Virus record (IMG/VR): IMGVR_UViG_3300021197_001894
Coordinates: 1 to 35,337 of that record
DNA: 35,337 nt
Strand: one strand, 5' to 3'
DNA from: a virus
Shown here: positions 66 through 21,439 of the stretch, piece after piece
How positions within the stretch are numbered: position 1 is the first letter of the stretch
Layout of the letters: every line of letters starts with the position of its first letter
The notes under the pieces: generated by a model
What the model saw: only the letters and a program-made list of their open reading frames with translations
Database searches by the model: none
What the model was told of the DNA's origin: nothing
Position numbers and translations under genes: made by a program

Positions 66-176
66 ATGAATAAAAAACTAAAACCAATACCATCAAAAAA
101 TAAAGGTCTTAAAAAATTACCTAAAAAAGTAAGGAATAAAATGGGCTTTAAGAAAAAAGGTGGAATAGTAAAATAG
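66..176 (+). CDS. small very basic protein, 36 aa, KKGG C-terminus
   Basis: A 36-residue protein, one third lysine, with no acidic residue visible. It ends in the motif KKKGGIVK. The start is well supported: AGGAGA lies 7-8 bases upstream of the ATG. The next small frame begins directly after the stop. Function is unknown. The lysine-rich character suggests nucleic-acid contact or packaging with the DNA. The GG-containing tail resembles motifs in the other small basic proteins downstream and in the large ejection-type proteins of the same operon. Confidence 0.6.
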   Translation: MNKKLKPIPSKNKGLKKLPKKVRNKMGFKKKGGIVK

Positions 177-248
177 ATGTGTAAGTGTAATGAAGATTAC
201 GAATGTATATGTGGACTTGAAATAGAAGAGAACAATAAAAATGACTAA
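177..248 (+). CDS. tiny Cys-rich acidic peptide, 23 aa
   Basis: The ATG follows the preceding stop with no gap, and the frame overlaps the next gene by 8 bases. The peptide has two CxC pairs, Cys2/Cys4 and Cys10/Cys12, in an otherwise acidic sequence ending NNKND. That arrangement could hold a metal ion or form disulfides. No clear ribosome-binding site is visible beyond translational coupling from the gene before. I do not recognise a family. The tight packing and the non-random cysteine pattern are the reasons for calling it. It may still be a chance frame in a 64-base gap. Confidence 0.4.
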   Translation: MCKCNEDYECICGLEIEENNKND

Positions 249-519
249 ATTATGTAAAAGAGGAAAAGAAGCCGCAAAGAGAAAGTTTGACGTTTATCCT
301 TCAGCGTATGCAAATGCGTATGCTTCTAAAATTTGTGCTGGTAAAATAAAAGACCCTAGTGGTAAAAAAAGAAAAGATTTTAAAGGACCTAAGCCAATGG
401 CAAAAGGTGGTTCAATTTCTCAACAAAGAAAAAAGATATCTAATTATGATCAAGGTGGAATAGCTAAAGGATGTGGAATGATCATGGAAAATAAAAGAAA
501 AGTAACTCAAAAAATGTAA
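241..519 (+). CDS. basic late-region protein with KFDVYPSAYAN motif
   Basis: A 92-residue lysine-rich protein. Residues 5-35 (CKRGKEAAKRKFDVYPSAYA, then AYASKICAGK) match a short module I know from small proteins of cyanophages and other marine viruses, of unknown function. The C-terminal half has two GG motifs, MAKGGSIS at 53-60 and DQGGIAKGCG at 70-79, followed by ENKRK. The stop overlaps the next ATG by one base (TAATG). It is likely a DNA- or virion-associated protein given its charge and its place among late genes, but nothing in the sequence proves this. Confidence 0.7.
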   Translation: MTKLCKRGKEAAKRKFDVYPSAYANAYASKICAGKIKDPSGKKRKDFKGPKPMAKGGSISQQRKKISNYDQGGIAKGCGMIMENKRKVTQKM

Positions 520-803
520 TGGCTAAATCTGGCTTAAAAAAGTGGTTTTCTCAAGAATGGGTTGATATAGGTTCTCCAAAAAAAGGAGGAGGATTTGCCA
601 AGTGTGGTAGATCGAAACAAAAGAAAGATGCTAAAAGAAAGTATCCAAAATGTGTTCCTAAGTCAAAAGCCACAAGTATGTCAAAGGGAGAAAGAAAATC
701 AGCAGTGTCAAGAAAAAGAGCAGTGGCTCAAGGAGTTGGTGGTAAACCAACTAATGTGAAAACTTTTGTCAAGAAAAAAACAAGCAGAAAAAATAAAGCT
801 TGA
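519..803 (+). CDS. DUF5872-like small basic protein
   Basis: 94 residues, strongly basic. Recognisable blocks in order: WFSQEWVDIGSPKKGGGFAKCGR (residues 9-31), YPKCVPKSKA (42-51), a KGERKSAVSRKRA stretch (56-68), and KPTNVKTF near the end. This pattern is typical of a small-protein family common in cyanophages and pelagiphages that I recall as DUF5872. The paired cysteines (Cys29, Cys45) and arginine/lysine richness suggest nucleic-acid binding, but no function is established. It starts on the A of the previous stop and overlaps the next gene by 38 bases. Confidence 0.72.
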   Translation: MAKSGLKKWFSQEWVDIGSPKKGGGFAKCGRSKQKKDAKRKYPKCVPKSKATSMSKGERKSAVSRKRAVAQGVGGKPTNVKTFVKKKTSRKNKA

Positions 804-1350
804 TGTAGTTAATTGGTCCAAGACTGTCTTGGAACCAATGAATAAACATATAGGTTTTCCAGCGTGTCCTTTCGCTGCTAAATGGAGAAAAGATAAAAAA
901 GTGCGAATTGAAGTTCGCATGGATAAGTCTAAATATGAAAAACACTTAACTTCTGTCATTAAGTCTTGGAATAAAAAAGAACATGATATTATAATTTACT
1001 GCGACCCTTTTTTTGAACAATATAATCCTGAACAATTTCAAGAAAAAATAGATTTTTATAATAAAACCTATAACAGAAGAGATGTGTACTTTATGGGATT
1101 TCATCCTGAAACACCTGCTGATCCTGATAGTGAAGCTTTTCTTTGTGACCCCACTGAGGAACCTGTAAAACATGGTGACTTAGAATATTCTATGATGCTT
1201 ATACAAAAATTTAAACAACTGTATGATGCAAGTTGCAAACTACATAAGATAGGCTATTATAAGAAATGGCCTAAGGAATACTACGATGAAGTAGTAGCTG
1301 AAAGGCAAAATACGTACGAAAAACTTTTTAAAAAAGGAGTAAAGTCATGA
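766..1350 (+). CDS. DUF1415-like protein of unknown function
   Basis: A 194-residue soluble protein. It shows a Trp at 17, a PACPFAAKWRK block at 32-42 followed by a V-R-I-E-V strand, a GFHPETPADPD block at about 111-121, and a helical C-terminus. The order W, then CPFA, then a basic strand, then FHP resembles the bacterial DUF1415 family, where LCPFA and FHP are the signature. I infer a distant relation. The start appears to be TTG at 766, because an in-frame stop (757-759) lies just upstream and the next ATG (residue 25) would remove Trp17. It overlaps the preceding gene by 38 bases and the following one by ATGA. Confidence 0.65.
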   Translation: MSRKKQAEKIKLDVVNWSKTVLEPMNKHIGFPACPFAAKWRKDKKVRIEVRMDKSKYEKHLTSVIKSWNKKEHDIIIYCDPFFEQYNPEQFQEKIDFYNKTYNRRDVYFMGFHPETPADPDSEAFLCDPTEEPVKHGDLEYSMMLIQKFKQLYDASCKLHKIGYYKKWPKEYYDEVVAERQNTYEKLFKKGVKS

Positions 1351-1565
1351 TGGCAAAAAAGAAACAAGTAATGAAAAAAGGTGGCATGGCCAAAAAGCGT
1401 GGCGGTGGCATGATGAAGAAAATGAGTATGGGTGGAAATGTTTCACCAAGAAAAGCAATGGCCATGGGAATGATGGATGGTGGTCCAGCAAAGAAAAAAT
1501 CTGTCGTTAAAAAACGTGGTGGCGGAATGATGAAAAAGCGTGGCGGCGGAATGATGAAAAAATAA
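1347..1565 (+). CDS. Lys/Met/Gly-rich low-complexity protein
   Basis: 72 residues made almost entirely of lysine, methionine and glycine. The unit KRGGGMMKK occurs three times (residues 18-25, 57-64, 65-72), and KKGGMAKK and SMGGNV occur between them. The start is supported by AAGGAG about 6 bases upstream and by an ATGA overlap with the previous gene. There is no enzyme-like region. The composition suggests an unfolded, nucleic-acid-binding or condensing peptide that may be packaged in the virion, but this is inference. Two ATG codons in tandem leave the exact start uncertain by one residue. Confidence 0.65.
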   Translation: MMAKKKQVMKKGGMAKKRGGGMMKKMSMGGNVSPRKAMAMGMMDGGPAKKKSVVKKRGGGMMKKRGGGMMKK

Positions 1566-1566
1566 T

Positions 1567-2250
1567 ATGGCTACCTCTGGTACAACTACTTTTAATTTAG
1601 ATATAGATGACGTTGTAGAAGACGCTTACGAAAGATGTGGCGTTGAAACACGTTCAGGCTATGATTTAAAATCAGCTAGAAGAAGTTTAAATATTCTTTT
1701 TCAAGAGTGGATGAACAGAGGTATTCATTTATGGAAAGTAGAAAATGAAACTGCTAATTTAACAGCAGGCACAACTACCTATACTGCTCCAAGTGATGCA
1801 AGTGATGTTTTAGAAATGACTTTTAGACAAATATCAAGTGGCACAACAACTGACACTACTATGACTAAAATATCACGATCAGAGTATCAAGCGATTCCTA
1901 ACAAATTTTCTCAAGGTCAACCTACTCAATATTATGTCGAGAGAAATTTGTCTAACGTTCAAATTAATCTTTATCAAACACCTAATACAACAGATACTCA
2001 AATTAATTATAACTACATAGGTAGGATACAAGACGCTGGAGCTTATACAAATCAGCCTGACGCTCCTTTTAGATTTCTTCCTTGCATGGTTTCAGGTTTA
2101 GCTTTTTATTTATCGCAAAAGAAAAACCCTCAAATGACTCAATCTTTAAAATTATATTATGAAGATGAATTACAGAGAGCTCTCACCGAAGACGGACAAA
2201 GAGCATCTGTTCATTTAGTTCCTCAAAACTATTTCATAAACGGTTCATAA
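1567..2250 (+). CDS. head-tail connector / tail accessory protein (P22 gp4-like)
   Basis: 227 residues. The N-terminus (DIDDVVEDAYERCG, then SARRSLNILFQEWMNRGIHLW) and the following TAGTTTYTAPSDASDVLE strand pair are typical of marine phage proteins annotated as tail accessory factor or packaged-DNA-stabilisation protein like P22 gp4, which seals the portal exit. It sits immediately before two further connector-type genes, as expected for this role. The family assignment rests on remembered sequence pattern. A tail-tubular or adaptor role by another name is possible. Confidence 0.65.
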   Translation: MATSGTTTFNLDIDDVVEDAYERCGVETRSGYDLKSARRSLNILFQEWMNRGIHLWKVENETANLTAGTTTYTAPSDASDVLEMTFRQISSGTTTDTTMTKISRSEYQAIPNKFSQGQPTQYYVERNLSNVQINLYQTPNTTDTQINYNYIGRIQDAGAYTNQPDAPFRFLPCMVSGLAFYLSQKKNPQMTQSLKLYYEDELQRALTEDGQRASVHLVPQNYFINGS

Positions 2251-2251
2251 C

Positions 2252-2584
2252 ATGGCTACCTTTGCTACAGGTAAATATGCTGTTGCTCTTTGTGATAGAT
2301 GTGGTCAACAATATAAGTTTGCTCAATTACAAGAAGAGTGGAACGGTTTGATGACATGTCCTGAGTGTTTTGAAACTAAGCACCCTCAATTAGACCCTTC
2401 TTTTCATAGTGCTGATGCACAAGCTTTACCTTGGACTAGACCAGCGAGACAAGAACCTATGACTGTTTTTGTTGGAGCTTCAGGAGACTCATCTTTTGAA
2501 TCAAATGGAATGCAACCGTCTAAACCAAGTAGAGCATTGATTATTGGTTCAAGTGTTGGTAAAGTGACAGTGGAGATATCATGA
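2252..2584 (+). CDS. zinc-ribbon protein of the connector module
   Basis: 110 residues. A CDRC motif at 14-17 and a CPEC motif at 36-39 form a four-cysteine zinc ribbon. This is followed by KHPQ and a WTRPARQEP segment, then a flexible Ser/Gly-rich region. This layout is conserved in many podovirus and myovirus genomes between head-tail connector genes; its function is not known to me. The gene begins 1 base after the previous stop and overlaps the next ATG by 4 bases, so it is translated as part of the connector set. A structural or assembly role is inferred from context. Confidence 0.7.
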   Translation: MATFATGKYAVALCDRCGQQYKFAQLQEEWNGLMTCPECFETKHPQLDPSFHSADAQALPWTRPARQEPMTVFVGASGDSSFESNGMQPSKPSRALIIGSSVGKVTVEIS

Positions 2585-3267
2585 ATTATTCAGAACTTTT
2601 AGATAATGTAAGAAATTACACAGAAGTAACAAGTGATGTGCTGTCTAATTCTGTGATTAATGTTTTTTTAACTAACATAGAAAATAAAGTAGCTAGACAA
2701 TTAGATTCTGATGATCAAAGAAGATATGCCACTACAACCTTTGAAGCCAATAATGCTTTTCTAGATGTTAGTGGTCCAGAAGGTGGGTTTAGATTTGCTA
2801 GAGCATTACAAATCGTAGCTGATGATGGAACAAGAACTTGGTTAGAGCAAAGAGATGCCACTTTTATGGACGAATATTCGGTAGAAAGATCCACGACAGA
2901 TACAAATTTTACAGGGCAACCCAAGTATTGGGGTAATTGGGACGCAACAACCTTGATTGTAGCTCCTACTCCAAATGTAGCTTATACAGTGGAGATGTGG
3001 TATGATGAAACAGCCGAAAGATTAGGGAATGGTTCAGGAACAACCTCCACCACAACATTTTTGTCTAATAACGCTCCTGAAGTTTTATTATTTGGAACTT
3101 TATCGGAGGCTTTTTCTTACTTGAAAAACCCACAAGATATGCAATTATACGAAAGTAAGTACCAAGTAGCTCTGCAAGATTTTGCACAAGAGCAAATGGG
3201 TCGTAAACGTAGGGATGAGTATCAAAATGGTGTGTTACGAATTCCGATGAAATCGCTAACACCATAA
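2581..3267 (+). CDS. putative phage adaptor / tail-neck protein
   Basis: 228 residues. It begins with a helical segment (MNYSELLDNVRNYTEV, then SVINVFLTNIENKVARQLD) followed by a beta-rich middle with FMDEYS and QPKYWGNWDATTLIVAPTPN. This order is characteristic of phage adaptor proteins, of the SU10-adaptor type as I recall it, that attach below the portal. The C-terminus is helical and basic (FAQEQMGRKRRDEYQNG). It directly precedes the repetitive structural genes. The identification is by pattern and context; no catalytic motif is expected. Confidence 0.6.
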   Translation: MNYSELLDNVRNYTEVTSDVLSNSVINVFLTNIENKVARQLDSDDQRRYATTTFEANNAFLDVSGPEGGFRFARALQIVADDGTRTWLEQRDATFMDEYSVERSTTDTNFTGQPKYWGNWDATTLIVAPTPNVAYTVEMWYDETAERLGNGSGTTSTTTFLSNNAPEVLLFGTLSEAFSYLKNPQDMQLYESKYQVALQDFAQEQMGRKRRDEYQNGVLRIPMKSLTP

Positions 3268-3282
3268 GGGAGTAACTAAAAA

Positions 3283-3726
3283 ATGACAATAAATCAAGCA
3301 GTCTGTGCTTCATTTAAAAAAGAACTGTTAGCAGGCGATCATGATATTGATAACGATACAATCAATCTCGCTCTGTACACAAACTCTGTAACTTTAAATG
3401 GAAACACAACAGCCTATTCCGCAACAAACGAAGTAGGTAATTCAGGAACATACGCAGCAGGTGGTATAACTTTAACAAGTCCAACTATCGGCTTAACAGC
3501 AACTAGCGCAACAGCTTCTACAGCATTTGTTGATTTTGCAAACGCAAGTTTTACATCAGCAACAATATCTGCTCAAGCAGCTTTGATCTATAATAGATCA
3601 TCAGCTAATACAAACGCAGCTATTTGTGTTCTTGATTTCGGTGCAGTAAAAACATCAACAAACGGTACATTCACAATCGCATTCCCAACTAATGATGCTT
3701 CAAGTGCTATATTAAGATTATCTTAA
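3283..3726 (+). CDS. beta-rich virion structural protein
   Basis: 147 residues, Thr/Ala/Ser-rich. The start CASFKKELLAGDHDIDND, the YSATNEVGNSGTYAAGG segment and the C-terminal VLDFGAVKTSTNGTFTIAFP block make up a protein type I have seen in many marine phage tail modules, usually called a structural or tail protein of unknown function. A GGGAG lies 11 bases before the ATG. It has no enzyme motif. By position between the neck genes and the tail fibre it is probably a virion surface or tail-fibre-associated protein. Confidence 0.62.
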   Translation: MTINQAVCASFKKELLAGDHDIDNDTINLALYTNSVTLNGNTTAYSATNEVGNSGTYAAGGITLTSPTIGLTATSATASTAFVDFANASFTSATISAQAALIYNRSSANTNAAICVLDFGAVKTSTNGTFTIAFPTNDASSAILRLS

Positions 3727-3743
3727 TTTAGAGGAGCATTACC

Positions 3744-4730
3744 ATGGCAGATGCTTGGGGTGAAAATAATTGGGGCGAAGGGGCATTTGGCCAACAAAGC
3801 TCGATCACGGTATCTGTTACTGGGTTATCGACTACAACAGCATTAGGAACTGAGTCTGTTGTTGCAGATGCATTAGTAGCCGTTTCAACTTTATCTATGA
3901 CCAGTGCGTTAGGCACTGCAGTAGGTGAACCTGAAAATGTCACGTTTCCTACAGGTGTTTCATTCGAAACACAACTCTCTGGAGCATTAGCAATTGAAGA
4001 AGGCGCAGGTGTCGTTCTCGGAAGTTTATCCACATCATTTGGTTTAGGCACTGAAGTAGCAGACGGAACCGTTGATGCAGGTTGGGGAAGAAATACTTGG
4101 GGTTCTTTCGCATGGAATGAAAATATAACTCAAGAGGTTAGCGTCACAGGTGTGGCGATGTCCACGGACTTAGGCACTTCTACAGTTGAAGTAGGTTCAG
4201 GTGTCATAGTTTCTGTAACAGGCTTAGAGATGACAAGTGCTCTAGGTGATACAACTGAAACAGGAACATCTCTTGTTACTTTAGATAGTCAATTAGTAAG
4301 TGTAGCTTTATCAGGAGCGACTGTTTCTGGTGAGGGAAGTGTTGCAGTTATTGCACCTTCCGATCAATTAGACTTTGCTATTGGAACTCCTACTATTGAA
4401 ATATTTACACAAGTAGATCCTGTTCCAGTCACTATGACTTCTGCACTTGGAACTGCTGTGGCAGAGGCAGATGCTCTTGTACAACCTACAGGAGTTTCAA
4501 TGACCTCTGCTTTAGGTACGGAAACAGTAGAGGTAGGAACTGGTGTAATTGTAAGTGTTTCCACAGTTGCCATGAGTTTTGCTGCAGGAACAGCAACAGC
4601 TACAGGTGGAGCTATTGTTAACTTAACAGGACTTGACTTATCGATAGTCACAGGAAATCCGTTTGCCACACCTTGGGCAAATGTAGTAACAGGTGCAAGT
4701 AATACTTGGACAGGGGTAGACGCAGCATAA
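3744..4730 (+). CDS. repetitive tail protein with MTSALGT repeats
   Basis: 328 residues, almost free of lysine and arginine. It is built from degenerate repeats of about 20-30 residues whose core reads V(S)xTGhxMTSALGTxxVE. Clear copies lie near residues 27-40, 51-62, 136-150, 158-170, 229-240 and 251-265. Two Trp/Gly motifs, WGENNWGEGAFG at 5-16 and WGRNTWGSFAW at 114-124, interrupt them. The ATG is preceded by GAGGAG. The repeat predicts a stacked beta structure, fitting a fibre or other elongated virion part. Families like this are common in marine phages, without a proven role. Confidence 0.65.
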   Translation: MADAWGENNWGEGAFGQQSSITVSVTGLSTTTALGTESVVADALVAVSTLSMTSALGTAVGEPENVTFPTGVSFETQLSGALAIEEGAGVVLGSLSTSFGLGTEVADGTVDAGWGRNTWGSFAWNENITQEVSVTGVAMSTDLGTSTVEVGSGVIVSVTGLEMTSALGDTTETGTSLVTLDSQLVSVALSGATVSGEGSVAVIAPSDQLDFAIGTPTIEIFTQVDPVPVTMTSALGTAVAEADALVQPTGVSMTSALGTETVEVGTGVIVSVSTVAMSFAAGTATATGGAIVNLTGLDLSIVTGNPFATPWANVVTGASNTWTGVDAA

Positions 4731-4736
4731 AAAGTG

Positions 4737-4764
4737 TTGCTTGAATAACAAAAAAAGATATATT
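4737..4764 (+). promoter_or_regulatory. possible promoter before the tail-fibre gene
   Basis: TTGCTT at 4737-4742 and TATATT at 4759-4764 are separated by 16 bases in the 50-base gap upstream of the tail-fibre gene, one of the longest gaps in the late region. The -10 box matches consensus at 5 of 6 bases, the -35 at about 3-4. In such AT-rich DNA chance matches are frequent. Confidence 0.28.
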
Positions 4765-4780
4765 TTAGAGAGGTTTAAAC

Positions 4781-5884
4781 ATGGCAAGTACATATACAAG
4801 TAGATTCAAATTAGAAAAGATGGAAACAGGGGCTAACGCCAATACCTGGGGTACAAATACCAATAATAATTTGGATGTTTTAGATGCCTTTGGTGGTGGT
4901 TATTTAGCTAAATCTGTTGCAGGTTCTGCTAATATTACTCTTTCAACTGCTGATGCAGATCCAACCGCTGAATCAGCGAATAAAGTAATTGAACTCACAG
5001 GAGCCTTAACGGGAGATATCGTAGTATTTATTCCTGCCGTTGAAAGCGATTATGTTTTCTTTAATAATACATCAGGTTCTCAAACTCTTACCATAGCTGC
5101 AACAGGTCATACAGCAAATGGTTTTGTTATAACACAAGGAGCATACTCACATGTTTATTGTGAGGGTACAGCTAATTTTAAAATTTATAATGCAGTTGAC
5201 AAATTAGGAACAACAGCTTTTAAAGGTGTTGCAACTTTTGATGCAGGAGCCACAGTTGCTTCTGGTCAAAATTTAACTGCAGGTGGTGGTAACATCACAC
5301 TTAGAAGTAATGGACAAGTTCAGGCTACTTTATTTACAGGTAGTGGTGCTGGTTTAACAGGAGTTGAACCTTTTGCTTCAGGAACTAAAATGGTTTTCTA
5401 TCAAGCCTCAGCTCCAACAGGTTGGACACAAGATACCGCTACTGCATTAAGTGATGCTGCTTTTCGTGTGACTACAGGTTCAGGTGCAGGCACAGGTGGT
5501 AGTGATACTTTTCAAACAACTTTTGTATCAACTAAAAATGCTGATACAAGTTCCGCAACAGTTTCTGTTTCAGGATCAGTTGGAGGTCATACCTTATCGA
5601 CACCTGAGATATCTAGTCACAAACATGGTATGGTAAATATGGCAAATAATCCTCCTGTAAGACCTCAACAACCTTTTCTTACTACCGCAGCATCACCTAG
5701 TGCCACTCAAGATAATCAAGTTGAGTACGATACAAATAATAATTTACGTAACGTTGCAGATGCAGGTGGCGGTGGATCTCACTCTCACCCATTTAGTGTA
5801 TCTAGTTCTTCTCTAGGCGGTACTATCTCTGTTCCTGCGATGAACATAAAATATGCAAACGTAATTGTAGCCGCTAAAGACTAA
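4781..5884 (+). CDS. tail fibre with phage tail-collar domain
   Basis: 367 residues. Residues 1-40 (KMETGANANTWGTNTNNNLD) are the N-terminal segment common to marine phage fibre proteins, probably the attachment part. A beta-rich middle follows. From about residue 200 (SGTKMVFYQASAPTGWTQD) the sequence matches the phage tail-collar domain, with the usual metal-type histidine clusters HKH (about 278-280) and HSH further on. The product is expected to be a trimeric receptor-binding or side fibre. AGAGAGG precedes the start. The oxygenase/glycosyltransferase cassette begins 4 bases after the stop. Confidence 0.78.
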   Translation: MASTYTSRFKLEKMETGANANTWGTNTNNNLDVLDAFGGGYLAKSVAGSANITLSTADADPTAESANKVIELTGALTGDIVVFIPAVESDYVFFNNTSGSQTLTIAATGHTANGFVITQGAYSHVYCEGTANFKIYNAVDKLGTTAFKGVATFDAGATVASGQNLTAGGGNITLRSNGQVQATLFTGSGAGLTGVEPFASGTKMVFYQASAPTGWTQDTATALSDAAFRVTTGSGAGTGGSDTFQTTFVSTKNADTSSATVSVSGSVGGHTLSTPEISSHKHGMVNMANNPPVRPQQPFLTTAASPSATQDNQVEYDTNNNLRNVADAGGGGSHSHPFSVSSSSLGGTISVPAMNIKYANVIVAAKD

Positions 5885-5888
5885 TTTT

Positions 5889-6440
5889 TTGTATCAAATA
5901 TTAGATAACGTTCTAAAAAAACCATCATTAAAATTTTTATATAATGAGAGTTTATCTACCTATGGTTGGCAATTAAATAGAAAATCTCAAAAGAATGAAG
6001 ATAAAGGATTTGGAGGTTTAATTCTTTCAGATAATTATCAACAATCAAATAACAGTTTTTTATATGGATTTAATATTTATTTATATCAACAAATATTGTC
6101 GAACTTTAAAAGCAACGTTTTAGAGGATCAACCACTACCTAGAAGAATACATTTAGGAGCAAAGTATAAAGGAAATGTAGGATCAAATCATAGGGACACT
6201 GATCACATTGATGATACTACTATATTATTTTTTAATAATCCTTTTTGGGAAAAAGATTGGGGAGGGGGAATTGTTATAGAGAACGAGTTAATAGATTATG
6301 TTCCAGGGAGAGCCATAATTTTTCCTTCAGTATTTTTTCATCACGTTGAACAAATTAAATCTGACGAGTCTCCGATTAGACTTGCAACAAATTTTATCTT
6401 TAACTATAATTTTAAAAGTTTAAAAAATGCCAATATTTGA
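5889..6440 (+). CDS. putative 2-oxoglutarate/Fe(II) oxygenase (first of four)
   Basis: 183 residues. The double-stranded beta-helix signature of 2OG/Fe(II) dioxygenases is visible: His101-x-Asp103 (NHRDTDH), a GGG strand at 125-127, then PGRAIIFPSVFFHH with His151 as the distal iron ligand, and Arg164 (SPIRLATNF) as the probable 2OG-binding arginine. Such enzymes hydroxylate proteins, nucleic acids or small molecules; the substrate is unknown. The start must be TTG at 5889, because an in-frame stop ends at 5870 and no ATG follows soon. It overlaps the next gene by 14 bases. Confidence 0.72.
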   Translation: MYQILDNVLKKPSLKFLYNESLSTYGWQLNRKSQKNEDKGFGGLILSDNYQQSNNSFLYGFNIYLYQQILSNFKSNVLEDQPLPRRIHLGAKYKGNVGSNHRDTDHIDDTTILFFNNPFWEKDWGGGIVIENELIDYVPGRAIIFPSVFFHHVEQIKSDESPIRLATNFIFNYNFKSLKNANI

Positions 6441-7285: not shown

Positions 7286-7304
7286 AGTTTTTCTGTAAAA
7301 AATA

Positions 7305-7853: not shown

Positions 7854-7855
7854 AG

Positions 7856-8452: not shown

Positions 8453-8457
8453 TCTAA

Positions 8458-9686: not shown

Positions 9687-9705
9687 TAAAAATAAAGGAG
9701 AAAAA

Positions 9706-10521: not shown

Positions 10522-10539
10522 TTTATATATATTGGCGTC

Positions 10540-12887: not shown

Positions 12888-12892
12888 ACCTG

Positions 12893-12919
12893 TTGATTTC
12901 CTAGCTTTCTATCTATAAA
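12893..12919 (+). promoter_or_regulatory. possible internal late promoter
   Basis: In the 40-base gap before 12928, TTGATT (12893-12898) and TATAAA (12914-12919) lie 15 bases apart, shorter than the usual 17. Transcription would start a few bases before the ATG, and there is no ribosome-binding site before that ATG, which fits a near-leaderless message. The match is modest for AT-rich DNA. Confidence 0.25.
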
Positions 12920-12927
12920 AATAGAGT

Positions 12928-13179: not shown

Positions 13180-13188
13180 AGGAATAAA

Positions 13189-14220
13189 ATGCAAGAAAAG
13201 GAGTACGCACAAATTTATGAATTAGGTCTCGGATCGCTGATCGGTGACTTCTTTCAAAATGTTAAGGACACTGTCACAGGTGTTGCTAGAGCTGTCGCTC
13301 CGATTGCTCCTTATGTTTTACCTTTTTTACCTATTCCTGGTATTGGATCTTTAAGTCCTGCATTAACAAAACAATTAATAGGAGCAGGTATTGGATTAGC
13401 CGCAGGTCAAAAACCAGTTGACGTTGCAAAAAATATGGCTCTTCAAGCAGCAACATCTGGAATTGCAAGTAGTCTTAGTGGAGGAAAATATGGAGACTCT
13501 TTCAAACAACAATTAGGTTTAGCTGACACTGGAGGACAAGACCAAAGCTTTATGCAAAAATATGTTACAGGGGAGGATTCGTTTTTAAGACAAACATTTG
13601 ATCCTACTCAAAGAGGAGAGAGACTAACTTCCGCCGCCACAAAGTTTGATGAGGCAATGGGTCAAGCGGGAGCGTATCAAGATTACTATAAAAACGCTTT
13701 AGATAAAGCTGTAGCAAGTAACAATCCAGAGGTGCTTTCTACATTCTTAAATAAGTTTCCCTCTCCAACAGAGAAGACAGGTTTTGGTTATAAGTATGGT
13801 CCGCTATACGCGGCAGGCAGTGCACTACTTCCTTTCGCCCTTCGTCAAGGCGAGCCAGATGAAGGGGGAACAGGATATGATGAACAAGCGAGAGAAGATT
13901 TCACTTTCTCCTACGCCGCTGACGGCGGTGAGGTAACAGGTGGTATCGCCAATAGCGGACAAAAAATAGAACACCCTGATGGTAAAGTAAAAGAACATCC
14001 AAAGCGTATCGGTGAAATTGCAGGAGCTGGAACGGGAACTTCTGATGACATTCCTGCAATGCTATCGGATGGAGAGTTTGTAATGACTGCTCAAGCTGTA
14101 AGAAACGCGGGCGGCGGATCGCGGAAAGCGGGAGCAAAGAATATGTATAAATTAATGAAAAGTTTAGAAAAAGGTGGTAGTTTATCTAAACAAAGTATGG
14201 GCATGGTGGGGAGAGCATAA
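13189..14220 (+). CDS. tail/ejection-module protein with DDIPAMLSDGEFVM motif
   Basis: 343 residues. Residues 32-100 are hydrophobic and Gly/Ala/Pro-rich (VLPFLPIPGIGSLSPAL, GAGIGLAAGQ), suggesting membrane interaction. The C-terminal third carries TSDDIPAMLSDGEFVMTAQA (284-303), a motif I know from many phage tail-module proteins, and the GG motifs ADGGEVTGGIA (244-254) and EKGGSLSK (327-334). The likely role is a minor virion protein delivered with the DNA or assembled at the tail hub; this is inferred from composition and from its place before other internal-protein genes. The stop overlaps the next start by one base. Confidence 0.65.
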   Translation: MQEKEYAQIYELGLGSLIGDFFQNVKDTVTGVARAVAPIAPYVLPFLPIPGIGSLSPALTKQLIGAGIGLAAGQKPVDVAKNMALQAATSGIASSLSGGKYGDSFKQQLGLADTGGQDQSFMQKYVTGEDSFLRQTFDPTQRGERLTSAATKFDEAMGQAGAYQDYYKNALDKAVASNNPEVLSTFLNKFPSPTEKTGFGYKYGPLYAAGSALLPFALRQGEPDEGGTGYDEQAREDFTFSYAADGGEVTGGIANSGQKIEHPDGKVKEHPKRIGEIAGAGTGTSDDIPAMLSDGEFVMTAQAVRNAGGGSRKAGAKNMYKLMKSLEKGGSLSKQSMGMVGRA

Positions 14221-15143
14221 TGGAAGAAGAAATTCAAGGTAAATATTTAGGGTACTTAGATAGTATCAAAGCTCTTCTTGATGATATTAAAGCGGGTGAT
14301 GTCCAAGGTGTCCCTGAACAAAAATTAGCTGAATTAAACGACCTTTATTCGAAAGCTCAAGATCAGTTTACTCAAGGAATTGGTTCCTATCAGGATTATG
14401 TTGATACAGGTGCTGGAACTATGGCAGAGGGTGTTGGTGCTCTAGGTCAAGCTAAAGATTTGTATGGGGAAGCTGCTGATGCATATAAAGGTATTGGTAA
14501 AGCTCCCACTTTAGAAGATCTTCAATCTTATATGAATCCTTATCAACAAACGATTCAAGATGAAATTGCTAGAACATACAATATAGCTAGGACTAAAGCA
14601 GACGCTAATGCTGTAGGTGCAGGTGCATTTGGCGGTGGACGTGAAGGTGTGCAAAGAGCCTTAATGACAGAAGATGAGGCAAGAGCAAGGTCTCGTTCAA
14701 TGGCTGATGCTTTTAACTATGCCACACAACAAAAGTATGCGAGAGATTTAGCTAGTGCACAAGGCTTAGGTGCAAGTGCGGGTGGTATTGGTAGCTTAGG
14801 ATCACAATTTGGTGCTTTAGGTGCAGGTCAAGCGGGTCTTGGTTTTGATGTACAAAAAGCAGGGTTAGTAGACATAGGTACCATGTTAGACTTTGCAAAC
14901 TTACAGCAACAACAAACACAAAAAGGTTTCGATGTTGATTATGCTAATCAGTTAGCACAATATCAGCAACCGTTTACAGAGTTAGGGTTTTTAGGATCAG
15001 CGTTTGGTTATGCTCCTTCTATACCTCAGGTAGCCTCGGCTGGAGGTGGTGGCAGCTTATCTCCTTTACAACAGACAATAGGATATGGAATGGCTGGTCT
15101 CGGAGCACTTAGCGGATTAAAAGGAATGCAAGGGTTATTCTAA
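14220..15143 (+). CDS. putative internal virion / DNA-ejection protein
   Basis: 307 residues, mostly helical and Gln/Ala/Gly-rich. YMNPYQQTIQDEIARTYN (about residues 108-125) followed by DANAVGAGAFGGGREGVQRA is a recognisable signature of a phage protein family encoded between the tail hub and the large ejection proteins. The Gly/Ala-rich C-terminus (GYGMAGLGALSGLKGMQGLF) is hydrophobic enough to meet a membrane. It is likely carried inside the capsid or tail and released during DNA entry. There is no enzyme motif. Confidence 0.65.
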   Translation: MEEEIQGKYLGYLDSIKALLDDIKAGDVQGVPEQKLAELNDLYSKAQDQFTQGIGSYQDYVDTGAGTMAEGVGALGQAKDLYGEAADAYKGIGKAPTLEDLQSYMNPYQQTIQDEIARTYNIARTKADANAVGAGAFGGGREGVQRALMTEDEARARSRSMADAFNYATQQKYARDLASAQGLGASAGGIGSLGSQFGALGAGQAGLGFDVQKAGLVDIGTMLDFANLQQQQTQKGFDVDYANQLAQYQQPFTELGFLGSAFGYAPSIPQVASAGGGGSLSPLQQTIGYGMAGLGALSGLKGMQGLF

Positions 15144-17518
15144 TGAATGTAGTTATGCAAAGACCAATGTTTAGACCTCAAATGGTGAGAAGACAACAGG
15201 GCAGCTCTCCCATGGGAGAAATGTTAGATCCCAATTCTGTTGTAAGAAGTGGTGAAATACTGAGTCCTGATCAAAGAAAAAGTTTTTTAAATATGTTAGA
15301 TCCCAATTCTGTTGTAAGAAGTGGTGAAATACTGAGTCCTGATCAAAGAAAAAGTTTTTTAAATATGTTAGATCCCAATTCTGTTGTAAGAAGTGGAGAA
15401 ATGTTGGTTGATCCCAACTCTGTTGTAAGAGAGGGTGAAATGCCAACAGAAGAACCAATGAATTCTTACACAAAAGCTTTATTAGATGATGAATTTAGAC
15501 GTTTTTTAATAACCGAAATACCTAACGGTCAAAATATTTTAGAAATGTTGTTACAAGGTAATACGCCTGAAAACTTTAGTACTTTAGTTCCATTATTAAA
15601 TGAGTTTACTAATTTTAAAATTTCAAACGAAATGAAAGAAAAAGGCGCTCTTCCTCCTCAAGGCGACATGATACCAGAGGAGGAATTGATGTTTTTAAAT
15701 AGATTAAAAAACATGGCTGAGGGTGGTGAAATGACTGCTGACGCTGTGGGTATTGCCGATGGACTAGATGCGGAGGAAGAAATGATGACCGCGGTTAGCG
15801 AACCGTCAGACGCAGGTATCGCTAAGGTATCCCCTGACCAGTATGTTCAGCTAATGAATGAGGTTAGAGGTGATGACATTCCTTTAGAGGGAAGAGTACA
15901 AGAATTAGCAATGAAGGTAGGAGAAAAAGACGCTCAGGACACCCCTTTATCTGTTCTCGCTTTGGTACAACCAGTTTTTGAATTAGAGGAGCAAGGTGGT
16001 ATTGCTCAAACACAGGAGGCTCAAAGTATGTCTCAACCAATGATGCCAACTGCGGCTGATCAACTAGCTAATCCGCAAAATATGGGAATAGTTAGAGCGA
16101 ATACAGGACTTTTTATTAATTCAGCAGATGCTGTGCCTTTTGCTGGGCAAGACATGTCAATGAGTTTAAAGATGCCTACAGGAAACACAGCGGCATCCTC
16201 TCCACAAAACTATGATATTTTACAAGGGATGATGTCTCCTACTCAGTATGATTTTATTACGAAAATGGGAGAAAATATGTTTGATATGGGAAAGCCACCT
16301 GTGGATATTACTCAAAGAGCAAAACAATATGAGGAAAAATTATTGGACAATGCTGATTTAAAGGGTCAATTTTTAACTAGTGTGGTCTCCCCTTTGTTGC
16401 TTCAAACTGCTCAAGACATCTTAGATCCTAACAAATCTTTTAGTGAAATTTTGATGGGAGGATTTAGTAGAATTGGCACTGCAGGTCAGGCTGGAGAGAA
16501 ACTAAAACAGCCTTATAAAACACAAGCCTTAAACTTAGCAACAAAAGACAAAGAAATTCAAGCTACGAAACAGTCAGACTTCGTTAAACTTTTTGGAGCA
16601 GAGGCAATTAAAAAAGCTTTTGCGGAACAGAAGAACAGAGAAATAATATTTCAAAACGTAGGTGGAGTTCCTATTCCCTTTGATAAAGACACTGGTCTCC
16701 CCATCAGCAGTGCGGATATATATTACACCTCTCTAACAAACACAAAAATGGAACAGATAAATAAAGGACTTAAATTACAGACAGCTCAGTCAGTTAAAAA
16801 TTTGTTCCCTGATTTAACTAATGAAGAATTAATTCAAATCGATCAAGACACAGATTACTTTGTAAAAAATAGTCCTCGATTTAAAGAAGAGTTTTATGAG
16901 ACAGATGAGGGTAGAAAATTTAAAATGTCACAAGAAGACACTTTAAGAAAAGAGTATCTAGCTCAAACAAAAGACTTTTCTTCGGCTGTCAGACAGTTTT
17001 CTATTCTAGATACCATAGCCGCAGATTCCACTGGTGCCACTGACATGGCTCTGGTCTTTACTTACATGAAAATTTTAGATCCAACCTCTGTTGTTAGAGA
17101 TAGTGAATTTGGTTTAGCGGCATCTACTGACTTATCTATGTTTGAGAATATAAGTCTGAATACCATAAACAAGATTCTCAATGGTCAAACGGTTTTAACA
17201 CCTAAACAAAGAGCAACTCTTATCTCCGCGGCGAGAGGGGCAACACTGGGAGCTTACAGAGCCTATGAAGGAGTTAGAAGTGGTTTTGAAAATATTGTGG
17301 ATGAGAGAGGTTTAAGCTCTATATCAGTTCTTCCCGACTTTACATCTAATTTAAAGTTACCTACGGTAGGTGATTTTGATAGTCTTCCTGATAATAAAAA
17401 GTTTGATTACTATAAGGAATTGGAGAAAGTCTTTAATTTACCATTAACGGATCGCGGAAAAGAATTCAATCTTGATAATCCACAAGATATTATAGACAGG
17501 ATAAATAGTCCAGGTTAA
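15143..17518 (+). CDS. large ejection-type protein with repeated LDPxSVVRxGE motif
   Basis: 791 residues. Residues 27-100 hold four copies of an LDPNSVVR(S/E)GE unit, two of them full 24-residue repeats also containing LSPDQRKSFLN. Residues about 224-290 (AGIAKVSPDQYVQLMNEVRG, then PLEGRVQELA, then VFELEEQGGIA) form a block I know from marine phages. The C-terminal part contains LDPTSVVRDSEFG (645-657) and, about 35 residues later, LTPKQRATLI, the parental-looking form of the N-terminal repeat. The role is inferred as an internal virion protein ejected with DNA. Length and neighbours fit; no lytic domain is visible. Confidence 0.65.
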   Translation: MNVVMQRPMFRPQMVRRQQGSSPMGEMLDPNSVVRSGEILSPDQRKSFLNMLDPNSVVRSGEILSPDQRKSFLNMLDPNSVVRSGEMLVDPNSVVREGEMPTEEPMNSYTKALLDDEFRRFLITEIPNGQNILEMLLQGNTPENFSTLVPLLNEFTNFKISNEMKEKGALPPQGDMIPEEELMFLNRLKNMAEGGEMTADAVGIADGLDAEEEMMTAVSEPSDAGIAKVSPDQYVQLMNEVRGDDIPLEGRVQELAMKVGEKDAQDTPLSVLALVQPVFELEEQGGIAQTQEAQSMSQPMMPTAADQLANPQNMGIVRANTGLFINSADAVPFAGQDMSMSLKMPTGNTAASSPQNYDILQGMMSPTQYDFITKMGENMFDMGKPPVDITQRAKQYEEKLLDNADLKGQFLTSVVSPLLLQTAQDILDPNKSFSEILMGGFSRIGTAGQAGEKLKQPYKTQALNLATKDKEIQATKQSDFVKLFGAEAIKKAFAEQKNREIIFQNVGGVPIPFDKDTGLPISSADIYYTSLTNTKMEQINKGLKLQTAQSVKNLFPDLTNEELIQIDQDTDYFVKNSPRFKEEFYETDEGRKFKMSQEDTLRKEYLAQTKDFSSAVRQFSILDTIAADSTGATDMALVFTYMKILDPTSVVRDSEFGLAASTDLSMFENISLNTINKILNGQTVLTPKQRATLISAARGATLGAYRAYEGVRSGFENIVDERGLSSISVLPDFTSNLKLPTVGDFDSLPDNKKFDYYKELEKVFNLPLTDRGKEFNLDNPQDIIDRINSPG
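15221..15442 (+). repeat. 72-bp in-gene tandem repeat, two full and two partial copies
   Basis: Copy 1 (15221-15292) and copy 2 (15293-15364) appear identical base for base. Copy 3 starts at 15365 and follows them for about 32 bases before diverging. A shorter degenerate copy lies at 15407-15442. The frame is kept, giving 24-residue peptide repeats. The base-level identity points to recent duplication. Confidence 0.9.
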
Positions 17519-17525
17519 AAATGAT

Positions 17526-20072
17526 ATGGCTGAAGATTTCAACCCAATATTAGGTAAAGAAACAGGGACTTATGATCCCTTTAGAAGTGTTAAAGATATT
17601 CCTTTAATTCCTATACAAGAAGATGAAGCATTTAAGCCTTATGTCTCCAATGCGGAAAACTTTTTATCTTTTTTGGCTCAACTAGAAGAGGAAATTGGAC
17701 CTGATATATATCCCAAAGGGAAAAGCGACAAAGTTGCTTTTAAAGATAGATTATTTGCTGATTTAAAGGAGGGAGTCAGTAAGGCAGGTGAAATAGGTTA
17801 TGTGAAAAACCTTTATGGAGAAAATAATGTCTTCTCCGATAATGAGGGAAACATTGTTTTTAGAGATGAACCAGGAGCTAGCTGGGAAGCATACAATCCT
17901 GAATTCTCAGCAGACAATGTATCAGAAATGTTTATACAGCCAATTGAAATGGCTAGTGAGGTAGTACAATTTGGTCCCGCTATGTTTACTGCTAATCCTA
18001 TAACCGCTGCCTTAACAATGGCTGCTGGAGAGGGAGCCTTACAATATATATCTTCTCAATTACCAGGTGAGGAAAACCTAACTAATGAGGAAAGAGCATT
18101 TAGAATTGTGTCTAATGGTGTGTTGGGTGGGTCTACTCAGTGGGCTGCTAACGGTTTCTTAAATTGGATTACAACTGTTAACCCTGTAAAAAACTTTGCT
18201 ACAAAAAATATTGTTAAAACAATTAAAGGAAAAAAAGGTAGTGAGGCTAGAGCTTTTTATGAGGAGGGTTTAAGATTACAAGAAAAATATGGAGCACTTA
18301 GTTTATCAGAGATAAGCGGTGATAAATTTTTAAGACAAATAGAAGACTTTTTAAGAGGGTACTACCTGACGAGAGGTCAGGGAGCTGATTTAGCGTTTGA
18401 ACAGATAACCAACACTGCTACAGCAATACAGAATATGATGAAACAACTGTACGGCAAGCAGGGAGGTCCTCTTTTAGGAAACAAAATTACTACTGCTTAC
18501 AATAATATTTTAGATAATCTAATTAAAAATAGAAAAGTTAGAGCTGATGAGGGGTTTGCCAATTTATCTAAGTTAAAAGATCAAAACTCAGGAAAAATAG
18601 TTGATTTTTCTGAGATACCTTTATTAAATACAAATAACTTTGTAGCTAAATTAGATGAATTAATAGCACAATACAAACCAATGGGCACAGGGGATGACTC
18701 TCTGTACAGGAGTTTATTAGACGCTAGAGCATCTTTACTAGATGATACAGGGGGAGAGGGTGTATTAACTGCTCTTCAATTTCAAAATTTAATTAGTCAA
18801 TACAGTTCAGCCGCAGCGGGAACGGGTAGTGTCTTCAAAGATTTAGGTGCAGCTGCTCAGAAGAGACCGTCCAGAGAATTATTGGATGCTTTAAACAAAG
18901 ATTTAGATCAAACCATTGAGAGTGGTTTACTGGGTAATGTTCAGTTAAAACAAATGAGTAACACCATTCAAACCGCTGTGGCAAAAAATTTACAAAAAGT
19001 AAGAGACGATTACAAAATAGACTCTGACTTAATAACAGCTTTAGAAAATTCTTTTTTAAGTGGTTTTATTCAAACAGGGAAAAAATCTGCGGATGACATT
19101 GTTAATCAATTTACTAAGTTAAGCGCTCAAGAAACAGAGGAAGCTTTAAAGTTTTTAAGGGACAACGGATATGATGATGTCATTCAACAAATGAAAGCTA
19201 CTCTTGTAGAGGATTCTTTTATTAAATCCTTGAGACCGATTGAAGATTTAACCTTAGAAGCTGAAAAACTATCTAAAGCAACTAGAGCTGGGGGACAAGC
19301 TCGAGACTCGGTGCAATCTAATAAATTTGATCCTTTGGTTTTTAAGGATATTTTAGATCCTGTTAGGTTTATGCAAAATCTTAACAAATCTTTAAAGGGA
19401 ACTGCTGGTGGAGGTAAAGGTAAGGCAGAAATTTTATTTTCAAAGGAAGAGTTAAAAGAAATAGGAGATGTTTTAGAATATATTCGAAGAGCTAATTTTA
19501 GTCGTGTAAGTCCCAAGGCAAGTATGCTTGATATTGTTTTGGGTTTTGTAAATTTACCTGGTTTAGTAGCGAGAGCGGGAGGTATGAATTATCTCTCTAA
19601 GTTATTATTAACAAAACAGGGTAGAGACGGTTTAGAGAATTTTATTGCTCTTCAAACAGGAGAAAAACAAGTAAAAGATTTAACAAAAAATATGGCTGCC
19701 AATGTAGTATTTTTTACAGAGTCAATGATGGATTATCAAACAGAGTTTGCCACAACAGGATCTTACTACGGTCAAGAACTTTTGGATGATGTTAAGAAAA
19801 AAGCAGAAGAGTTTATTCCTAAAATACAAGCACCAGAATCAGAGTTTATAGAGATGGAACCTGATACTCAAAATTCACAGTCCTTTAATATTCCTTCTCC
19901 TCAAGTGTCCCGCGGACAGGGGGTAGACGTTATCCCTCCTTTGTCTTCCCCCATTAATCCGCAGACCGTGGCTAGCTTAGAGTCAATTGGCATGCCTCTT
20001 TTTAATGCAAAAGATGGTGGTCTCGCTAGTTTAGATACAAATAAATTTAAAAGACCACAGGTGGTAGCATAA
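17526..20072 (+). CDS. large helical ejection-type protein, 848 aa
   Basis: 848 residues, largely helical. A hydrophobic stretch at about 149-176 (FGPAMFTANPITAALTMAAG) could insert in a membrane. Long amphipathic helices follow (residues 290-640), and a proline-rich segment near 770-810 leads to a GG motif, DGGLASLD, at 830-837. Size, location after two internal-protein candidates and composition fit the largest of three DNA-ejection proteins, comparable in position to T7 gp15/gp16 or P22 gp16/gp20. No sequence identity to those is claimed. No transglycosylase motif is seen. Confidence 0.6.
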   Translation: MAEDFNPILGKETGTYDPFRSVKDIPLIPIQEDEAFKPYVSNAENFLSFLAQLEEEIGPDIYPKGKSDKVAFKDRLFADLKEGVSKAGEIGYVKNLYGENNVFSDNEGNIVFRDEPGASWEAYNPEFSADNVSEMFIQPIEMASEVVQFGPAMFTANPITAALTMAAGEGALQYISSQLPGEENLTNEERAFRIVSNGVLGGSTQWAANGFLNWITTVNPVKNFATKNIVKTIKGKKGSEARAFYEEGLRLQEKYGALSLSEISGDKFLRQIEDFLRGYYLTRGQGADLAFEQITNTATAIQNMMKQLYGKQGGPLLGNKITTAYNNILDNLIKNRKVRADEGFANLSKLKDQNSGKIVDFSEIPLLNTNNFVAKLDELIAQYKPMGTGDDSLYRSLLDARASLLDDTGGEGVLTALQFQNLISQYSSAAAGTGSVFKDLGAAAQKRPSRELLDALNKDLDQTIESGLLGNVQLKQMSNTIQTAVAKNLQKVRDDYKIDSDLITALENSFLSGFIQTGKKSADDIVNQFTKLSAQETEEALKFLRDNGYDDVIQQMKATLVEDSFIKSLRPIEDLTLEAEKLSKATRAGGQARDSVQSNKFDPLVFKDILDPVRFMQNLNKSLKGTAGGGKGKAEILFSKEELKEIGDVLEYIRRANFSRVSPKASMLDIVLGFVNLPGLVARAGGMNYLSKLLLTKQGRDGLENFIALQTGEKQVKDLTKNMAANVVFFTESMMDYQTEFATTGSYYGQELLDDVKKKAEEFIPKIQAPESEFIEMEPDTQNSQSFNIPSPQVSRGQGVDVIPPLSSPINPQTVASLESIGMPLFNAKDGGLASLDTNKFKRPQVVA

Positions 20073-21439
20073 TGTCAATAATGCAAACAATTCAAGCTAA
20101 TAGAGCAAACCGAAAACCAAAAAAAGTTGGCTTTAGTGATGTAGGTAATCGTGGTAGTTACACACCAGGTGGTGATTCTTTTAAAAATTATAGTCAAAAA
20201 GATCAAAACATCATGTTTGATCAAGCAGGTGGTAAAGATAAACTTATTGATCAAGCTTACAATATACAACAAAAATACCCAAGAGGTCCAGATTTTCAAA
20301 GATATTTAAATAAAGCAAAACAATATCAAGGAGGACAATCTGCTGGTGGTAAAATACTTGAGGGTCCTGATGGTATCATGCGTTTACAAATGTCTGGTGC
20401 CGATGTTCCTATGAAAGATGCACAGGGTCGAACTATTTTATCAATGATGCAGCCTGAACTGACAGCACAAGCTCCAACATTTGGAGAATTTTTTCAAGAT
20501 ATGGTAAGAGGTGCTGGGAATATGTTGGGTGGGGTTGCAGAGGCGGCCATGTCAGGTAAGCTTGGTTTTACAGGTGCTGTTAAAGATATTTGGGATAGTG
20601 TTAGAAGTAACTTTAGTGGTGAAAGTCAGGGAATAGAAACCGTTCCAAGACCTGATCCTTTTTCAAGTGGAGCAGACGCAGGAGGGGCTTATGTATCTGC
20701 TCCACTTAATAATCAAAAAATTGGGACGCAAGTGATGAATAGTATAATTCCTCAGGCTAACGCACCAGAAGATGTAATTCCTTTCCCAACTTCATCAGGC
20801 AGGAATATTGGTGATGAGAGTGATCCATCAATATTTGGTATAGACAATGCTGGTGTATCTCTTCCTTATCAAAGAAGCACAATAGAAAATCCTAATTTAA
20901 TTAATATGCCTCGGGAAAATGTAAATCTTCCTGAATACTATGACCCTAATAATACCTTGGGTAATATATATTTAGAGAGTATTGGTGTTGTTCCTGAGGG
21001 AACTATTGGATCAGATTTAAGAACTGAACTATCTCCTGAAGAAAGAACAATACTAGACAAGTACCTATTTGAGAAAATGCTTAAAGAAGAGCAAATGAAA
21101 AATAAACAAAAAGAAGATTTTTATAATCAACCTCCTGAAACAAATCCAATTGGACAACCCGTTCTTATGGCCGAAAATACAGGATTACCTTCTTTAATGG
21201 ATTTATATAATTTTTCAAAAAACCCTCAAATAAAAACACCTATAGGTAATTTAAGATTTGATAATGTTTTTTCAGGGAAACCCGAATTAGGCTACTCTAA
21301 TACAGTAGATATATTTGGACAACCTGTTGACTTAAATGCTAGAGTGGGTCAGGGGGGACTAAACTTCGGAGCATCAATGAATTTTAAAAAGGGTGGAAGT
21401 GTAGACAAATACGCTGGCTTAGGTTATAAACTTAAATAA
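20072..21439 (+). CDS. late virion-module protein of unknown function
   Basis: 455 residues. The N-terminus is basic and Gln/Asn-rich (MSIMQTIQANRANRKPKKVG). The middle is Pro/Gly-rich and probably extended (residues 110-330). The C-terminus repeats the operon's GG motif: FKKGGSVDKYAGLGYKLK at 438-455. A DNARVGQ-like beta stretch (VDLNARVGQGGLNFGAS) just before it suggests a small folded domain. I do not recognise a family. It begins on the last base of the preceding gene and ends 1 base before the gene leading to the lysozyme, so it belongs to the late operon. Confidence 0.58.
   Translation: MSIMQTIQANRANRKPKKVGFSDVGNRGSYTPGGDSFKNYSQKDQNIMFDQAGGKDKLIDQAYNIQQKYPRGPDFQRYLNKAKQYQGGQSAGGKILEGPDGIMRLQMSGADVPMKDAQGRTILSMMQPELTAQAPTFGEFFQDMVRGAGNMLGGVAEAAMSGKLGFTGAVKDIWDSVRSNFSGESQGIETVPRPDPFSSGADAGGAYVSAPLNNQKIGTQVMNSIIPQANAPEDVIPFPTSSGRNIGDESDPSIFGIDNAGVSLPYQRSTIENPNLINMPRENVNLPEYYDPNNTLGNIYLESIGVVPEGTIGSDLRTELSPEERTILDKYLFEKMLKEEQMKNKQKEDFYNQPPETNPIGQPVLMAENTGLPSLMDLYNFSKNPQIKTPIGNLRFDNVFSGKPELGYSNTVDIFGQPVDLNARVGQGGLNFGASMNFKKGGSVDKYAGLGYKLK

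Follow-up and report, generated by a model that had tools for sequence, protein, structure and literature searches.

The window analysed in this work, the whole of a 35,337-base virus record, encodes a small basic protein of 92 residues that ends in a 21-residue peptide (tag A), and this peptide recurs at a fixed distance from the C-terminus of many otherwise differing phage proteins. Two further C-terminal peptides, tags B and C, are carried by other small proteins and in part by the same bodies. We propose that the tags are modular C-terminal docking peptides for the virion, placed on DNA-associated internal proteins and similar in their working to the T4 capsid-targeting sequence (CTS), and we give this reading a probability of about 0.5.

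The late block of the window

The window comprises a late block (66-21439) and a replication block starting at about 22300, and the portal and capsid genes of this phage fall outside the record. All the genes located below by window coordinates are encoded on the plus strand. The late block opens with a basic protein of 36 residues (66..176), which has a VRNKMGF body, KKGGIVK at its C-terminus and no tag. In the 92-residue basic protein (241..519; phrog_27331, 2.3e-18) a body of the YPSAYAN type (residues 1-46) is joined through a linker to tag A, GGIAKGCGMIMENKRKVTQKM (residues 72-92; 454..516), which scores 63.8 bits against the tag A profile and lies exactly at the C-terminus. This is the one canonical tag of the window. 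The adjoining basic protein of 94 residues (519..803; phrog_23735) has a KWVDIG body and no tag, and a 72-residue Lys/Gly/Met protein (1347..1565) is built from KKGGM and KRGGGMMKK units, which resemble the linkers preceding tag B in the viral loci L359 and L403. A head-tail adaptor protein of the SU10 adaptor family is encoded at 1567..2250 (PF24175, 7.8e-13; phrog_12985, 2.4e-37). A second, differing protein of this family (2581..3267; PF24175, 1.4e-19) is separated from the first by one gene.

Tag A

Tag A is a C-terminal peptide of 21 residues with the consensus GGIAKGCGxVMxNRRKxTKxY. The peptide KKGGIAK taken alone is in mild excess, with 115 viral-contig stretches against 65 for the reversed peptide; it falls inside an open reading frame (ORF) in 76 of the 80 loci examined out of those 115, and many of these ORFs are small and basic with the match near the C-terminus. 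Among these loci GGIAKGCGxVMx(N/D)RRK recurs 21 residues from the end of differing proteins, as in the 92-residue protein of the window. A scan of viral contigs for GGIAKGCG returned at least 120 stretches. Among the matches listed, the string lies in an ORF in 117 of 118 newly fetched loci, starting exactly at -21 in 110 of the 117 ORFs, at -27 or -28 in six and at -17 in one. The residues outside the search string are as fixed as those inside it, since all 78 distinct 23-residue tails of exact length among the matches listed have Arg at -7, Lys at -6 and Thr at -4. Viral-contig counts here and below are at least the figures given and come from non-random samples; the ORFs were called mechanically, and the tags were defined partly on the same data as the counts. 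A profile of tag A reached 15 bits or more in 132 of 7765 ORFs, 125 of them exactly C-terminal, and in no reversed or shuffled sequence; as for tag B below, the profile counts include the sequences that built the profile.

On bacterial genome contigs GGIAKGCG was found in 42 stretches, two of which have a true tag A (L545, Rhodobiaceae MED766, and L546, Halieaceae). Both belong to metagenome-assembled genomes and are perhaps phage contigs, and a bacterial origin of the tag was rejected on this basis.

The AlphaFold2 model of the 92-residue protein (mean pLDDT 61.5, pTM 0.36) predicts two helices in the body, with block means of pLDDT of 70-81 for residues 1-40 and 46-55 for the rest. Such low confidence in linker and tag would be expected of a peptide that folds on its partner, and equally of any loose or disordered tail.

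Tags B and C

Tag B was first seen beside tag A genes. Its consensus is GGxVRGxGxAIRGxxFKGxF, in which GG..RG.G.A.RG is often followed by F-K-G-V-F. A search with a degenerate pattern gave at least 120 loci; among the matches listed, 43 of 120 loci had no ORF match, and 68 of 78 ORF matches lay within 25 residues of the C-terminus, starting at -20 in 41, at -19 in 12 and at -14 in eight. A few of the pattern matches, in GC-rich ORFs, look like chance. The profile of tag B reached 15 bits or more in 66 of 7835 ORFs, 58 exactly C-terminal, against five reversed and no shuffled sequences.

In order to avoid tag bias, a sample of loci was gathered through the adaptor protein, taking the best 80 of at least 560 relatives from at least 600 stretches; these are close relatives of the window adaptor (57-100% identity) rather than phages at large. 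After removal of A- and B-like ends, GG followed by a hydrophobic residue occurred 23 times in the last 20 residues of 370 C-termini of this adaptor sample, against 11.5 (sd 3.1), with no excess in the three windows before. Charged GG showed no excess in the last 20 residues of the untagged proteins of the sample (14 against 12.4 expected), and for plain GG the excess extended to other positions (118 against 85.4 between -60 and -40). The residual excess of GG with a hydrophobic residue exposed tag C, a C-terminal Y(Y/I/F)(K/G)(D/G) followed by two hydrophobic residues (e.g. ..YYKDLL). Among 7495 ORFs, a count without ORFs cut by a contig end, control loci of the reversed pattern and bacterial loci, the hexapeptide was exactly C-terminal in 60, within the last 10 residues in 56 and interior in seven, with one match in reversed proteins. 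In the adaptor sample 74 of 74 hexapeptides end within four residues of the C-terminus and none was found in reversed proteins, a count that is no independent test as the tag was spotted in that sample itself. Tags B and C end alike by eye, often in aromatic-Lys-(Gly/Asp)-hydrophobic-hydrophobic.

The linkers ahead of the tags are often of low complexity and GG pairs are frequent in glycine-rich virion proteins, so that the tags could be thought an ordinary convergence of Gly/Lys-rich ends. Such an origin is however refuted for tags A and C, and we find it scarcely credible for the tags: at the profile score shuffled sequences gave nothing and reversed ones none (A) or five (B), and the distance from the C-terminus is fixed.

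The GG that opens tag A and most B tags might alternatively be a cleavage point, the C-terminal piece being a propeptide removed by, or a label for, a prohead protease. The T4 CTS is N-terminal and is removed by the prohead protease, and the T4 internal proteins are processed in this way. The opening Gly residues are however present in only 85-87% of 55 distinct B tags, and GG in the last 32 residues of 24 of 51 distinct C tails, while the ends are conserved, which makes cleavage a very improbable account of the tags.

Bodies that carry the tags

When the tags were removed from 195 ORFs bearing tag A or B, the bodies fell into at least 28 clusters, with 158 in a single cluster; one further tagged ORF, with a body shorter than 20 residues, was left out of the clustering. 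The figure of 28 is a lower bound because the permissive linking rule lumps lysine-rich sequences together. Deduplicated in the adaptor sample (best 80 of at least 560), the YPSAYAN body has tag A in 17 cases, C in 17, B in one and none in five; the KWVDIG body has C in eight and none in nine, and the VRNKMGF body C in one and none in six. Over all the non-bacterial loci, counted without deduplication, YPSAYAN is found with A in 122 cases (inflated by the searches), B in eight, C in 26 and none in 19; KWVDIG with C in 31, B in two and none in 59; and VRNKMGF, in 39 ORFs, with B in three, C in two and none in 34. One tagged body, in locus L403, is LysM/endolysin-like, and of 35 other tagged proteins one or more match endolysin families. 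In each of 19 loci there are two or three A/B-tagged genes, mostly neighbours. The data directly support a fixed C-terminal place for the tags, several unrelated bodies for each tag and different tags on one body.

EF-hand-like segments (e.g. DLTGDGKVTQADI) recur in small proteins, both tagged and untagged (L359, 2506-2820; L468, from about 9003; L430, 11831-11956).

Matching B tags within one phage

Ten loci have at least two B tags on bodies without detectable similarity, the near-duplicate locus L063 being left out. The mean identity of these tags is 0.717 (range 0.45-0.90) against 0.493 (sd 0.040) for random tag sets (p=0.0002), under a null that ignores phage relatedness; an earlier version with 15 pairs, the near-duplicate locus included, gave 0.727 against 0.492. 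The pairs differ by 77 synonymous and 80 non-synonymous codon changes in 280 codons, which is too many for recent copies. The identity would also be raised if the tags of a lineage had descended from an old shared ancestor.

These counts bear on a further explanation, by which the conservation would reside in the nucleic acid, as DNA or RNA elements or recombination joints that happen to fall at the 3' ends of genes. Bodies and tags are indeed reshuffled, as would happen at recombination joints. Third codon positions vary in tags A and B, however, and the B tags of one phage match as proteins in spite of their synonymous differences. An element at the DNA level was rejected on these two grounds; the explanation is largely refuted and its chance negligible. 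The matching of B tags within one phage and the variation at synonymous sites are both directly supported by the data.

Gene neighbourhood and charge

In the adaptor sample (best 80 of at least 560), tag A, B or C is present in 46 of the 51 loci with at least 2 kb upstream: A alone in 15 and B or C in various combinations in 31, with none in five. Restricted to tags A and B, with a stricter threshold for B, 25 of the same 51 loci are tagged. Over the 80 loci, 118 of 1400 complete ORFs have a tag, ORFs cut by a contig end being left out of the tag, body, terminal-GG, charge and hexapeptide counts. All 118 tagged genes share the strand of the adaptor gene, 117 of them at a distance of at most 2.5 kb. 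The neighbours scanned, 128 of 253 candidates beside tagged genes, matched the SU10 adaptor (16), the portal (13) and GroES (10), and less often terminase, holin and lysozyme families; many match nothing of known function.

The tags might instead dock their proteins on a host or phage complex outside the virion late in infection, for instance the host polymerase, the ribosome or a membrane complex, and a single host partner in each phage would likewise produce matching tags. We consider this quite improbable, given the 117 of 118 tagged genes so close to the adaptor gene and all on its strand (best 80 of at least 560), and the presence of portal, GroES and terminase among the neighbours.

The tagged bodies are strongly basic. 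In the adaptor sample (best 80 of at least 560) the median net charge per residue is +0.19 for 95 tagged bodies, 92 of which lie above +0.05, and -0.02 for 847 untagged proteins, the 405 untagged proteins near the adaptor having the same median of -0.02. Gene position and basic bodies are thus also directly supported. Such bodies, the RRK of tag A and the GG..RG.G.A.RG of tag B would suit tails rich in RG/GG and Lys/Arg that raise the affinity for DNA or RNA without any protein partner. We regard this alternative as unlikely, since loose RG tails would not be expected to keep an exact C-terminal register, often with an aromatic or hydrophobic last residue, to include a tag C (YYKDLL) with acidic and hydrophobic residues, or to match within one phage as the B tags do. 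RG/RGG nucleic-acid motifs comprise multiple RG or RGG in no fixed place; tag B has two RG at a fixed spacing, as tags A and C do not, and its RG repeats may simply bind nucleic acid.

The GroES proteins encoded near tagged genes contain KGGILF, KGGVIL and KGGLIL (L426, 18645-19112; L006, 11146-11586; L007, 23415-23882). KGG followed by hydrophobic residues in phage GroES recalls the GroEL-binding mobile loop of GroES, and its resemblance to the KGGI of the tags may be chance.

Proposed role of the tags

The basic bodies, together with the low-confidence tail of the AlphaFold2 model, led us to propose a C-terminal virion-docking peptide. We infer from the observations above a docking partner, and entry into the virion, contact with DNA and ejection of the tagged proteins. 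In the mechanism proposed, the phage family of the window and other uncultured phages would attach tag A, B or C to changing small basic late proteins, with their genes sitting beside those for portal, GroES and head-tail adaptor, and the GG would often act as a flexible joint from body to peptide. Each peptide would be bound by a phage-encoded partner that is present while head or tail is assembled, such as the procapsid shell, the scaffold, the portal or the adaptor, and any body bearing the tag would thereby be taken into the virion. The basic bodies would rest against the packaged DNA and leave with it at ejection. Tentatively, the tags may serve many uncultured phages as combinatorial address labels, in which a few mostly basic bodies (YPSAYAN, KWVDIG, VRNKMGF, EF-hand-like, NPKQAIAI, LysM and others) are combined with a few C-terminal labels (A, B, C and perhaps more), each directed to a distinct docking site, and related genes switch label between lineages as the docking sites change.

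Pelagibacter is among the most abundant bacteria of the sea, and the proteins so marked would form a class in phages related to those that infect it. If the tags direct proteins into virions, sequence alone would mark DNA-bound or injected phage proteins that otherwise go without annotation, and it could be tested directly which of the small proteins pass into the cell during infection. The tags would also provide a compact, transferable signal by which foreign proteins could be loaded into capsids of this kind.

The docking proposed here differs from the T4 CTS in its C-terminal position, which sets the tags apart from that N-terminal signal, and in having at least three tag types, with different types on the same body; packaging is demonstrated in T4, while the tagged proteins are known from their sequences. 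The CTS is a short conserved peptide common to otherwise highly diverse internal proteins, and the lysines of these proteins contact packaged DNA (PMC3012670). The short conserved signal on diverse bodies (at least 28 clusters for tags A and B) and the basic character of those bodies (92 of 95 tagged above +0.05 per residue, best 80 of at least 560) are points of likeness. Encapsulin cargo-loading peptides bind in a pocket of the shell protein. They are short, C-terminal, present on unrelated cargo and encoded beside the gene of a shell that resembles the HK97 capsid (PMC7355545). The tags are likewise C-terminal peptides on unrelated bodies; the encapsulin peptide has about 10 residues and is cellular, whereas tags A and B have 20-21 residues and C about 6-10, in late regions of phages. 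Five ejection proteins leave the head of phage SU10 (PMC9509320). Two proteins of the window belong to the SU10 adaptor family, but the first 50,000 of the 77,327 bases of SU10 contain no A, B or C tag. Finally, the double-glycine leader is N-terminal and ends in GG, in contrast to the tags, where the conserved part follows the GG and is C-terminal.

Tags in named phages

The tag search covered parts of 11 named phage records. HTVC023P has tag B in gp32 and gp51 and tag C in gp52 and gp53. In psg01, tag A is found at 27156-27350 of the record (L426, 17157-17351), in an ORF without annotation there, and tag C in the next gene. That next gene (L426, 17351-17719) is annotated only from 17501. Short genes make up many of those with a tag, the record of at least one genome omits such a gene, and annotation may generally miss small tagged genes. 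The order in psg01 is portal, small genes (the 38-residue, tag-A and KWVDIG genes among them), GroES, three more genes and capsid, and the window likewise has those small genes (36, 92 and 94 residues) upstream of the adaptor. HMO-2011 gave one chance-like match to tag C, in a gene of the early half. The stretches searched of DSL-LC04, HTVC027P, CRP-901, SU10, MW202675, P-SCSP2, HTVC106P and HTVC203P gave no tag; the YPSAYAN body occurs without a tag in HTVC027P, P-SCSP2, HTVC106P and HTVC203P.

Small proteins whose genes closely follow that of the portal, or lie near it, have the C-termini KGTRRMRPDKKPVKATWY (psg01; L426, 16127-16318) and RGTKRMLKDKKKTATWY (HTVC027P; L007, 20967-21158), which may represent a fourth tag or a divergent form of tag A.

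Used alone as very short queries against PHROG, none of 10 tag peptides found a match. In tblastn searches of annotated phages with short, low-complexity-filtered queries, tag A gave one match (psg01) and two B tags gave none, and a single tblastn query made by joining six tagged proteins retrieved no relative from 50,697 phage records. Such tags were absent from the titles and abstracts found in the open-licence literature.

Glycine pairs in the large late proteins

The first-pass annotation had ascribed one GG motif to eight late proteins and suggested, as one explanation, a short signal common to proteins that enter the virion: a docking peptide, a maturation-protease site or a membrane or peptidoglycan contact. 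The eleven peptides on which it rested were all recovered in their proteins, and both residue positions given for them are correct. The pattern [KDQE]GG[AVILMFGSE] was counted in late and early proteins against within-protein shuffles. Taken together, the 28 late proteins have 14 sites where shuffles give 7.3 (p=0.018). Five of these, against 0.9, fall in the four small basic proteins at 66-176, 241-519, 519-803 and 1347-1565 (p=0.0025), and the other 24 show no significant excess (nine against 6.5, p=0.21), nor do the five proteins of 13189-21439 (seven against 4.2, p=0.13) or the 22 early proteins (three against 2.1, p=0.35). The enrichment over shuffled controls thus holds for the small basic proteins and fails for the remainder, and the pattern, described as absent from replication proteins, is present in early proteins at three sites, e.g. 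QQKGGEADN in the helicase. A post hoc count of GG[ILVMF][AST] in the 13189-21439 block gave a weak excess (five against 1.4, p=0.014).

The 13189-21439 block has five genes, including those for a 307-residue protein like DNA ejection proteins (phrog_4287) and for a protein of 343 residues (13189..14220). The latter has ADGGEVT and EKGGSLS, both in a C-terminal third resembling tape-measure proteins; residues 236-341 match tail tape-measure families (phrog_6090, 5448, 23013 and others), with phrog_6090 at 2.5e-08 over residues 274-324. The matched region includes both GG sites and is not a C-terminal tag, and this too speaks against a single motif. The 791-residue protein (15143..17518) has AEGGEMTA and EQGGIAQ, and the 848-residue protein (17526..20072) has KDGGLASL close to its C-terminus; none of these three bears tag A, B or C. 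When five large proteins are compared with the relative L004, 6 of the 10 charged GG sites are conserved, as are 14 of the remaining 24. With no significant excess and no better conservation, the GG sites of the large proteins are ordinary as a class, and convergence of Gly/Lys-rich sequence is the likely account of most of them. One motif for the eight proteins was rejected on the shuffle test and the comparison with L004. For the 21-residue tag of the 92-residue protein, a short docking signal on virion proteins remains a good lead, though not for the others as one motif; the annotation had overlooked that the second GG of that protein opens a C-terminal tag of fixed length.

A virion protein of the window matches phrog_3287 and its relative in DSL-LC04 is annotated as a stabilization protein. 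Judged by its 608-residue protein, the window is closest among named phages to DSL-LC04 (48% identity) and to two pelagiphages, HTVC023P and HTVC027P. At the N-terminus of the 791-residue protein a tandem repeat is seen, with DPNSVVR at residues 29, 53, 77 and 90 (window about 15227-15440), and DPNSVVR is missing from the homologues in L003 (724 residues) and L004 (719 residues).

It had likewise been overlooked that the last GG of the 455-residue late protein (20072..21439) opens a tail, KKGGSVDKYAGLGYKLK (residues 439-455, nucleotides 21386-21436), which is nearly invariant among its relatives. In this family (the window protein and L552-L588) the C-terminal end GGSVDKYAGLGYKLK is almost invariant and the N-terminal parts differ. 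The GGSVDKYAGLGYKLK tail falls in an ORF in 36 of 38 stretches, at position -15 in all 36. The bodies that precede it form three to five clusters by their first 80-120 residues and a single one by their first 150. The modularity of GGSVDKYAGLGYKLK is thus unsupported because its bodies link into one family, and it was rejected as a modular tag.
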